Below are positions 24,936-27,129 of a stretch of 33,484 nucleotides of DNA, piece after piece. A model generated the notes under the pieces. It was not told the origin of the DNA, made no database searches, and saw nothing but the letters and a program-made list of their open reading frames with translations. The stretch spans positions 1 through 33,484 of the forward strand of contig CASEEV010000038.1 of the NCBI GenBank assembly GCA_949287065.1, written 5' to 3'. A program made the position numbers and the translations under genes. This stretch comes from an uncultured Collinsella sp. (GTDB lineage Bacteria; Actinomycetota; Coriobacteriia; Coriobacteriales; Coriobacteriaceae). Positions within the stretch are counted from its first letter, which is position 1. Each line of letters opens with the position of its first letter.

Positions 24936-25985
24936 ATGGCAGACACCACCGTTCTGCTCGGCCATGGGTCGGGCGGGCAGATGATGAAGCGCCTTATTGA
25001 CGAGATGTTCTTGGAGGCCTTCGGCAACCCGGCGCTCAACGAGGGCAACGACGCCGGCGTGGCGCCGCTCGGCGCGAGCGAGAATGGCGAGGCCGGGAGC
25101 GCCCCGGTTCGCATTGCCATGTCGACCGACAGCTTCGTGGTGACCCCGCAGTTCTTTCCGGGCGGCAACATCGGGCGGCTCGCCGTGTGCGGCACCGTAA
25201 ACGACGTGGCCACCTCGGGCGCACGCGTGCGCTATCTCTCGTGCGGGTTCATCCTCGAAGAGGGCTACCCCATGGACAAGCTGCGCGCCATCTGCCAGAG
25301 CATGGCCGACACCGCGCGCGAGGCGGGCGTGGCCATTATCACCGGCGACACCAAGGTCGTGGAGCGCGGCGGTGCCGACGGCGTGTACATCAACACGGCC
25401 GGCGTGGGCGAGCTGCCTGCGGGCGCGGAGCTCTCGGGCGCTAACTGCCGCCCCGGCGACAAGGTGCTCGTCTCGGGCACCCTTGGCGACCACGGCATCG
25501 CGATCATGAGCCAGCGCGAGGGGCTTGCGTTTGCGGCCCCCATCGAGTCCGACGCCGCACCGCTCAACCACCTTATTGCCGCCGTTATGGAGGCGGCGCC
25601 GAGCGCACGTTGCTTCCGCGACCCCACGCGCGGCGGCCTGGCGAGCACCCTGAACGAGTTTGCCGCCGCGAGCAACGTTGAGATCGAGATCAGCGAGGAA
25701 GCCGTGCCCGTGCGCGATGCCGTGCGCGGCGCCTGCGAGATGCTCGGCTACGACGTGCTGCAGGTGGCCAACGAGGGCAAGATGGTCGCCGTGGTGCCGC
25801 CCGAAGAGGCCGACGCTGCGCTCGCCGCCATGCGCGCCAGCCGCTACGGCGAGAACGCCGCTGTTATCGGCGAGATCCTGCCGCTCACAGAAGGTGCTTC
25901 TCCGCGCGTTCGCGTGCGTACGCCTTGGGGCTCGGCCCGCGTGCTCGACATGCTGGTGGGCGAACAGCTCCCCCGCATCTGCTAA
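24936..25985 (+). CDS. hypE: Hydrogenase maturation protein HypE
   Basis: HypE dehydrates the thiocarboxamide made by HypF to thiocyanate on its own C-terminal cysteine and passes CN to HypC/HypD. The 349-residue PurM-like protein has the N-terminal 'LLGHGSGGQMMKRLIDEMF', the ATP-site motifs 'MSTDSFVVTPQFFPGGNIGR' and 'AVCGTVNDVATSGA', and 'FRDPTRGGLASTLNEFA'. It ends in the diagnostic PRIC with the terminal cysteine intact. GAGGAGG lies upstream and the start is 3 bp after the hypD stop. It is the last hyp gene here; hypA and hypB are not in the window. Confidence 0.97.
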   Translation: MADTTVLLGHGSGGQMMKRLIDEMFLEAFGNPALNEGNDAGVAPLGASENGEAGSAPVRIAMSTDSFVVTPQFFPGGNIGRLAVCGTVNDVATSGARVRYLSCGFILEEGYPMDKLRAICQSMADTAREAGVAIITGDTKVVERGGADGVYINTAGVGELPAGAELSGANCRPGDKVLVSGTLGDHGIAIMSQREGLAFAAPIESDAAPLNHLIAAVMEAAPSARCFRDPTRGGLASTLNEFAAASNVEIEISEEAVPVRDAVRGACEMLGYDVLQVANEGKMVAVVPPEEADAALAAMRASRYGENAAVIGEILPLTEGASPRVRVRTPWGSARVLDMLVGEQLPRIC

Positions 25986-26031: not shown

Positions 26032-26079
26032 TCGAAGGGCACACGGCCCGCATTTTGCCCGATGCCGGGAACGTTTTGA

Positions 26080-26204
26080 CGGTTATTCGAATACTTTTCG
26101 GAACACCGCGAGTAGACGAGGGTTCTCGGCCAACAAACCCGCAGGTAGAAGCGTTGGGCACAAGCGGGCTACTCGGCATCTTCTAAAAAGTATTCGAATA
26201 TCCG
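26080..26204. repeat. Structured intergenic element, copy A
   Basis: Outer arms 26080-26098 and 26186-26204 are 19-bp inverted repeats with one mismatch (centre TATTCGAATA). Inside lie a second stem, CGAGTAG (26109-26115) with CTACTCG (26169-26175), and a conserved AAACCCGCAGGTA at 26135-26147. GCCAAC/GTTGG can form an inner stem around it. The layout is that of a folded RNA or DNA hairpin of ~125 nt. Copy B shares the core but not the arm sequence. Confidence 0.75.
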
Positions 26205-26238
26205 AAAAAAACTCTTCGCACGGCCCTTCCGACAGCCC

Positions 26239-26377
26239 GTTTTTACGGGAAATGGAGGTTCTTTTGAAGCTCCGCGAGTAGACCGCACGCCCCGGGCATC
26301 AAACCCGCAGGTACAGGGCGTGCTGCACAATCGGCTACTCGAGCATCGTCCGAAGAACCTCCATTTTCCGTAAAAAC
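26239..26377. repeat. Structured intergenic element, copy B
   Basis: Outer arms 26240-26263 and 26353-26376 are 24-bp inverted repeats with one mismatch, extendable by one pair at 26239/26377, and of different sequence from copy A. The shared core is CGAGTAG (26275-26281), AAACCCGCAGGTA (26301-26313), GCACAA, then CTACTCG (26335-26341). GCACGCCC (26285-26292) and GGGCGTGC (26316-26323) form a perfect inner stem around the conserved loop. Copies A and B are tandem, same orientation, 166 nt apart core to core. No other gene is visible in 25986-26466. Confidence 0.75.
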
Positions 26378-26466: not shown

Positions 26467-27129
26467 ATGCGTTTTAGCCACGTGATCTTCGACATGGACG
26501 GAACGCTGCTCAACACGCTCGACGACCTCGCGCTCGCCGCCAACCTCGTGTGCGCTGCGCACGGCTGGCCCGAGCACAGCCTTGCCGAGTACAAGCACAT
26601 GGTCGGCAACGGCGTCGAGAAGCTCGTGGAGCGCTACATGCCTGAAGGGCTCGCCGCCGCGGACCCGGAACTCTTTGAGCAGACCGTTGCCGAGCAGCGT
26701 GCCACCTACGCCGCGCACCGCCGCGATCACACCGAGCCCTACCCCGGCATCACCGCCATGCTCGACGAACTGCGAGCGCACGACGCGGTTCTCGCCGTGC
26801 TGAGCAACAAGGACCACAGCGCCGTGGAGCCCTTGGCGCGCGAGTACTTTGGCAGCCGGTTTGTCGCCGCGCAGGGGCGCGAGGAACGCTTTGCGCCAAA
26901 GCCCGACCCCGTGATCACCCGCGCGCTGCTCAAGCGCCTCGGCGCCGACCCTGCGCGCGTGCTGTACGTGGGCGACTCCGACGTAGACGTGGCAACCGGC
27001 CACAACGTGGGCGTGCCCGTCTGCGGCGTGGCCTGGGGCTTCCGCGGCCGCGCCGAGCTCGAGGCGGCCGGAGCCGACTACCTGGCCAACGAGCCCGCCG
27101 ACATCGTGCGCATTGCCACCGGCCAGTAG
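26467..27129 (+). CDS. HAD-superfamily hydrolase, phosphoglycolate-phosphatase-like
   Basis: A 220-residue HAD subfamily IA phosphatase. Motif I is D9-M-D11-G in HVIFDMDGTLLNT. A helical cap follows (~17-85, with YKHMVGNGVEKLVERY). Motif II is in 'VLAVLSNKDHSAVE' (Ser), motif III Lys in 'RFAPKPDPVITRALL', and motif IV 'VLYVGDSDVDVATGHNVGV'. The overall match is to the Gph/PGP group, which removes phosphate from 2-phosphoglycolate or other small phosphates; specificity is not settled by sequence. An AGGAAGG site precedes ATG 26467. The RNA methyltransferase gene follows after 46 bp, possibly co-transcribed. Confidence 0.9.
   Translation: MRFSHVIFDMDGTLLNTLDDLALAANLVCAAHGWPEHSLAEYKHMVGNGVEKLVERYMPEGLAAADPELFEQTVAEQRATYAAHRRDHTEPYPGITAMLDELRAHDAVLAVLSNKDHSAVEPLAREYFGSRFVAAQGREERFAPKPDPVITRALLKRLGADPARVLYVGDSDVDVATGHNVGVPVCGVAWGFRGRAELEAAGADYLANEPADIVRIATGQ

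Follow-up and report, generated by a model that had tools for sequence, protein, structure and literature searches.

A dispersed family of 139-bp palindromes in gut Coriobacteria associated with a putative nuclease gene

Introduction

REPIN-RAYT systems are made of dispersed intergenic inverted doublets, of which a genome can carry several types, each with its own single-copy gene beside a cluster of the same type, and in some clusters unrelated types sit side by side (Bertels and Rainey 2011, PMC3116915). A different kind of long DNA site is that of the EDxHD homing endonuclease I-Bth0305I, an unusually long target of nearly 60 bp bound as a dimer (PMC3943268). MITEs, ERIC/RU and Correia-like repeats are non-coding, intergenic sequences of 100-170 bp with inverted ends. 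And in IscB/TnpB, a nuclease gene adjoins a conserved non-coding element (the omegaRNA).

Here we describe a pair of elements, A and B, in a window of 33,484 nucleotides (the whole stretch of DNA analysed) from an uncultured Collinsella sp., and the family to which they appear to belong. The family resembles REPIN-RAYT in its inverted doublets, in having several types per genome and in placing each type beside its own gene, with a nuclease gene in the role of the RAYT. It differs in that the partner has a predicted Vsr/EDxHD fold and is not a Y1 tyrosine transposase, and in the large conserved core of fixed length. With I-Bth0305I (PDB 3r3p), the modelled partner shares the fold of the catalytic domain, but it shows no sign of an intron host, it is associated with many dispersed non-coding palindromes, and the present analysis assigned no fold to its first 200 residues. 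In size, non-coding nature, inverted ends and intergenic location the elements look like MITEs, ERIC/RU or Correia-like repeats, except that here the ends vary and the interior is conserved, and neither transposase-type ends nor target duplications were seen. The likeness to IscB/TnpB is that of a nuclease gene beside a conserved non-coding element; the differences are the lack of an RNA signature, another nuclease fold, and arms that match the gene by type.

Two palindromes with one core

Copies A and B are each 139 bp long, an 87-bp core inside inverted arms of about 25 bp (Table 1). The preliminary description of this DNA had reported two tandem elements with a common core in the same order and spacing, and that is what we find: counting from the first G of GTTTT as base 1, both have CGAGTAG at 37-43, CGCAGGT at 68-74 and CTACTCG at 97-103, and the dyad centre is base 70 of 139. 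A repeat search pairs 26074-26115 with 26169-26210 in copy A (79% complementary) and 26239-26281 with 26335-26377 in copy B (84%), with 53 nt between the two halves in both cases, and finds a 21-nt core common to A and B. The arms had been called entirely different between the copies. There are indeed two arm types, but the tips GTTTT..CGG and a T-run beside the core are common to both.

Table 1. Features of the two elements and their neighbours (positions in the window)
Feature	Position	Strand	Basis
Copy A, arm type A, whole 139-bp element starting GTTTT	26073..26211	+	sequence, repeat search, alignment
Copy A, left arm, TTTTGACGGTTATTCGAATACTTTT	26074..26098	+	repeat search, alignment
Copy A, 87-bp core	26099..26185	+	core model R2 match, E 2e-17
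Copy A, inner box CGAGTAG	26109..26115	+	read from sequence
Copy A, CGCAGGT at dyad centre	26140..26146	+	sequence, alignment
Copy A, inner box CTACTCG	26169..26175	+	read from sequence
Copy A, right arm	26186..26210	+	repeat search, alignment
Copy B, arm type B, whole 139-bp element	26239..26377	+	sequence, repeat search, alignment
Copy B, left arm, TTTTTACGGGAAATGGAGGTTCTTT	26240..26264	+	repeat search, alignment
Copy B, 87-bp core	26265..26351	+	core model R2 match, E 3e-14
Copy B, inner box CGAGTAG	26275..26281	+	read from sequence
Copy B, CGCAGGT at dyad centre	26306..26312	+	sequence, alignment
Copy B, inner box CTACTCG	26335..26341	+	read from sequence
Copy B, right arm	26352..26376	+	repeat search, alignment
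hypE, upstream neighbour, outside the system	24936..25985	+	NCBIfam TIGR02124 1.8e-132
HAD-family phosphatase, downstream neighbour, outside the system	26467..27129	+	NCBIfam best 6.5e-38, HAD-IA family

Could such an architecture arise by chance? It recurs at about 20 places in the window's own genome (G000) and about 25 in the genome of a sister species (G001), which puts it far beyond chance (a DNA search returns 39 and 43 matching stretches, respectively). Because the same arms recur genome-wide, A and B stand for a pair of arm types and not for unrelated sequences. Among the matching stretches of the two genomes, type A is GTTTTGACGGTTATTCGARTACTTTT and type B is GTTTTTACGGGAAATGGAGGTTCTTT.

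A family dispersed in Coriobacteriaceae

The preliminary description had proposed a covariance-model search of relatives. We used a model, R2, built from the 87-bp core alone with the arms left out, and it recovers the element in 61 of the 67 genomes of the bacterial family, several close genomes being among those without a detected element. A single genome can have as many as 62 matches, of which some are one element read on both strands. Outside Coriobacteriaceae, the model matches only in one related family of the same order. Across 84,980 species genomes, an exact core pattern occurs in 31 stretches, each of them from Coriobacteriaceae (Collinsella, Enorma or Olsenella). It is absent from 2.9 million viral contigs, on which ground we rejected viral carriage. 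A and B appear to be members of a large, apparently undescribed family of 139-bp DNA palindromes in gut Coriobacteria; we found no description of it in the open-access literature searched, which leaves most subscription journals outside its coverage.

On contigs C135, C100, C125 and C30 of genome G012, elements lie at or near the contig ends. Short-read assemblies probably break at elements, and therefore the copies are probably undercounted. We also considered whether insertion positions are conserved across genera. There are 29 coincident neighbours where roughly 11 or more would be expected, which is not convincing, and we set the idea aside.

The core is constrained and the arms are diverse

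When 37 distinct A and B copies are aligned they span 139 columns with zero gaps, even though their cores are often only 50-75% identical, which indicates that the length of the element is under constraint. One further B copy carries one extra base. Across the family, core lengths range from 85 to 89 bp, with 87 bp in 179 of 219 copies and 86 bp in 26, the 86-bp cores being concentrated mostly in particular arm types. The weak matches in other genera show the same core and spacing within quite different inverted arms, and each genome has one to six arm types, which differ between species. Judged from this comparison, the core is old and the arms are not. A short REP has a GTAG-type tag beside a local hairpin; here a GAGTAG box is conserved, with GAGCAC instead in some groups, and it belongs to the core, some 12 bp inward of the arms. 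The outermost arm bases vary between types across the family, unlike transposon ends.

Among the earlier proposals, the one that came closest was a hairpin-based mobile element whose arms depend on where it inserts. The part about the insertion site had to be dropped, because the same arms recur at many unrelated sites per genome.

The two ends of A-type copies (e.g. L001:1514-1652 and L038:3349-3487) tend to differ, one being GACGG and the other TTCGG, as if left and right were distinguished. One subfamily (L003:1510-1648, L043:2909-3047, L047:3181-3319, L034:2737-2875) has a central terminator-like hairpin, AAACCCGCAGG..CCTGCGGGTTT, with a compensated variant in L034/L043, and several of its copies also have ATAAGGTACCTTAT.

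In the cases examined, pairs of elements less than about 500 bp apart with no partner gene (see below) between them, as in the window, have different arm types or subtypes. All four B copies in the window's genome adjoin an A (chance about 0.004). Since some pairs may be copies of one composite, this unlike-arm pairing is only suggestive; it would fit the exclusion of like by like, or an instability of same-arm pairs. At L355, one copy of a close pair is a hybrid of two subtypes: the copy (527-613 with arms, G010:C1) is CGGTT-like in its left arm and GGGGA in its right, and it adjoins a CGGTT copy. It is a possible recombinant or conversion intermediate.

A recurrent partner gene

Comparing the genes that adjoin elements across genomes, we find a recurrent protein of about 350 aa, and no recurrent transposase. 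A profile search with this protein separates close members from distant paralogues. Fourteen of the 16 close members lie beside core-model elements (12 of 14 loci in one search, plus two further genes), one more adjoins a palindrome whose arms are perfect and whose core has diverged, and the last sits near a contig end. The element lies close to the ends of the gene, and it is present on both sides for 7 close members among the 14 loci searched and for 1 further gene. At the 17 distant-paralogue loci, no complete core-model element was found. Restricting the comparison to close members that were not chosen by adjacency, the element is beside 9 of 11 versus 0 of 17 distant paralogues (p=8e-6).

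Two elements that flank one partner gene have the same arms, and these arms are mostly shared with the dispersed copies of their genome, as in G004, G012, G013, G069 and G116. Copy-rich genomes in which the profile search finds no close member do exist (G010, with 36 copies), and some genomes without elements have members of the partner family. As far as sequence comparison goes, the palindrome family is tied to a gene with a predicted nuclease fold, and arm type is tightly linked with that gene. The gene context had been considered uninformative, and within the window it is; elsewhere in the genome and in the family, the nuclease gene is the decisive context.

At L265 (G013:C28), the match to the partner gene has an in-frame TGA and elements of one arm type on both sides; this gene is possibly decayed.

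An AlphaFold2 model of the partner protein made from 13 sequences has pLDDT 89.5 and pTM 0.90. Residues ~203-323 of the model superimpose on the catalytic domain of I-Bth0305I (Z 9.9, rmsd 2.3, 96 of 97 residues); other matches are 3hrl (Z 8.6), Vsr (Z 6.7) and, more weakly, TnsA (Z 5.8). Residues D252, E267 and H274 are invariant in 13 members. In this model, the C-terminal domain clearly has a Vsr/EDxHD-type endonuclease fold (PD-(D/E)XK), an assignment made by VIA-align re-ranking; Foldseek alone gave no match under 1e-3. PADLOC and NCBIfam provide no name for the protein, its Pfam matches, REase_MTES_1575 and DUF559 among them, stay below the cut-off, and it falls within no curated family.

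Joint exchange of gene and element

The partner gene of the window's genome (G000:C23) and that of the sister species (G001:C1) are counterparts at one locus. The proteins are 65% identical, and the G000 protein comes with an A element, the G001 protein with a B element. The DNA of the two genomes is about 92% identical outside, falls to mostly 45-75% from around codon 35 through the element, and then returns to about 95%. By this comparison, protein and element have been exchanged together, A with A and B with B. Two further loci have A in G000 and B in G001, matching the resident gene of each genome, and at one of them the identity of the flanks extends right to the element's first base. This makes three arm switches in total; no reverse switch (B in G000, A in G001) was found among the orthologous loci compared. 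At switched loci, A and B cores have a similarity of 0.59-0.60 versus a background of about 0.5, an increase that is only suggestive.

The orthologous loci of G000 and G001 that we compared mostly have the element in both genomes, with one possible loss (the L004 locus), and no insertion event was seen. There was no clean empty site at the loci compared, and no target-site duplication visible by eye in the flanks of the elements. Since no insertion was caught, mobility in real time is inferred.

A proposed mechanism, and sites that only bind

The comparison thus describes a family with a fixed geometry, diverse arms, an associated gene, and joint exchange of the two. The reading we consider probable, with some reservation, is that of selfish, REPIN-like palindromes which cognate nucleases recognise: the arms would be the recognition sequence of one protein, and the elements would spread, or be converted, by repair. 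Each arm type would be the recognition sequence of one cognate nuclease-fold protein of about 350 aa, whose gene sits between or beside elements of its own arm type. The protein would bind both arms together with the core, in a complex whose geometry is fixed, and cut the DNA there; repair of the break would copy elements, or convert a resident element of another arm type, so that the resident nuclease would come to fill the genome with its own arm type. The window's A and B would then be the arm types of two nuclease alleles, the A-type gene being C23 in the window's genome and the B-type gene that of the sister species. More tentatively, at somewhat less than an even chance, these would be selfish DNA of a new class: palindromes, non-coding and transposase-free, which multiply and overwrite one another through a trans-acting Vsr/EDxHD-type nuclease, with arms imposed by the allele, the class extending to distant paralogues with palindromes of their own.

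The protein could instead only bind the elements, as operators by which it regulates itself or as sites by which it organises DNA, the copies being spread by duplication, recombination and horizontal exchange and never mobilised. The stable orthologous positions between G000 and G001, the closeness of the element to the gene ends, and the exchange of gene and element as one block, as by homologous recombination, are what this would predict. It has to contend with up to 62 matches per genome at unrelated loci, with arm types that are few in each genome and yet different between species, and with arm switches at sites far from the gene, and we regard it as unlikely.

Duplex DNA or RNA fold

Across arm types, most arm positions show all four Watson-Crick pairs, which looks like covariation, and the preliminary description took it for the mark of a selected fold and put forward a small non-coding RNA family. 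The elements would then be transcribed into a structured RNA with a long stem and a conserved apical CCGCAGGTAGA loop, regulatory or acting as a guide, perhaps with the nuclease as partner (omega-RNA-like). The covariation between arm types is real; core and length are strictly conserved, the asymmetric centre gives a direction, and some copies contain the terminator-like hairpin.

Selection acting on an RNA strand would favour G.U mismatches. The arms have 97 G.T versus 82 A.C mismatches in 215 copies (p=0.3), and the core stem has 67 versus 80, so that G.T is no commoner than A.C in either. Within arm type A, variants are unmatched across the dyad: pairing of variants between the two arms is 0.64 when 0.72 is expected, and a copy's two arms resemble each other less (0.83) than arms taken from different copies do (0.87). 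Where a cluster mixes subtypes, variants are matched across the dyad, because both arms change type together, and the covariation between arm types has the same origin. An Rfam search, suggested in the preliminary description, has no match at the gathering threshold (the best E-value, 0.41, is below the cut-off), and a known RNA family was rejected accordingly. With Rfam empty, no wobble bias, and arms that vary independently within type A, the small RNA family finds no support, and we consider it improbable. The absence of a wobble bias and the independent variation of type A arms favour recognition of duplex DNA over an RNA fold, with arms that seem to behave as two copies of one duplex recognition sequence.

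Transposase-moved and host-beneficial repeats

An ordinary MITE, REP or REPIN, mobilised in trans by a DDE or Y1 transposase whose gene lies elsewhere, would fit the size, the inverted ends, the intergenic dispersal and the non-coding nature of the elements. We think this very unlikely. The Y1 (IS200-like) transposase PF01797 is absent from G000 and G001, and no core-model match is found near the Y1 genes of relatives, for which reasons a RAYT in cis was rejected. The system described here would work like REPIN-RAYT, but it falls outside that group, because it lacks the Y1 transposase by which the group is defined. Nor does any transposase recur as a neighbour. The conserved interior and variable ends are the reverse of a MITE, and the terminal inverted repeats differ between species, unlike those of a MITE of a DDE transposon. 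No longer parent copy with the arms of the element was found in G000, where complete elements account for the arm DNA matches.

That the elements are of benefit to the host chromosome (BIME or gyrase-site like), have no selfish partner and are accompanied by a hitch-hiking nuclease is hardly credible: 139 bp with fixed phasing, retained in 61 of 67 genomes, would suit it, but the arm types vary by genome and match the adjacent nuclease gene, and several close genomes have no detected element.

If cognate nucleases do maintain these palindromes, bacteria would have a second solution to the REPIN problem, in which a repeat persists with a nuclease rather than a transposase, and in which recognition sequence and enzyme change together. 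It would give a function to a nuclease-like protein family matched weakly by DUF559 and REase_MTES_1575, and amount to a natural collection of long DNA sites with matching cutters. And it would explain much of the repetitive intergenic DNA in Collinsella and relatives, which are common gut bacteria.

Palindromes near distant paralogues

Palindromes of 110-175 bp without an R2 core are found near paralogues at 12 of 18 loci versus 2 of 24 control loci (10 of 16 with orthologues removed, p=4e-4). As an example, the paralogue at C12 of the window's genome has a palindrome with arms TGCTCAAATAATCAAATAAT, and a palindrome close to another element has arms similar to these. The palindromes that adjoin the distant paralogues at L252, L257, L259, L263, L266, L269, L272 and L273 (110-175 bp) are unrelated, and the centres of some paralogue palindromes contain TCTACCTGC or CCGCAGGTAA, as in the main family.

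Many copies of the main family are themselves surrounded by other dispersed palindromic repeats (L008 at G000:C50, L007, L005, L021, L022), of one kind with CGACGCCACG.TTCCGACA../..TGTCGGAA.CGTGGCGTCG and of another with CTTCYGCAAACCG../..CGGTTTGCGGAAGG. These repeats may belong to paralogous nucleases. At L268 (G069:C9), GGACTCAGTACTGACA-like units of both orientations form a tandem array on either side of a paralogue gene.
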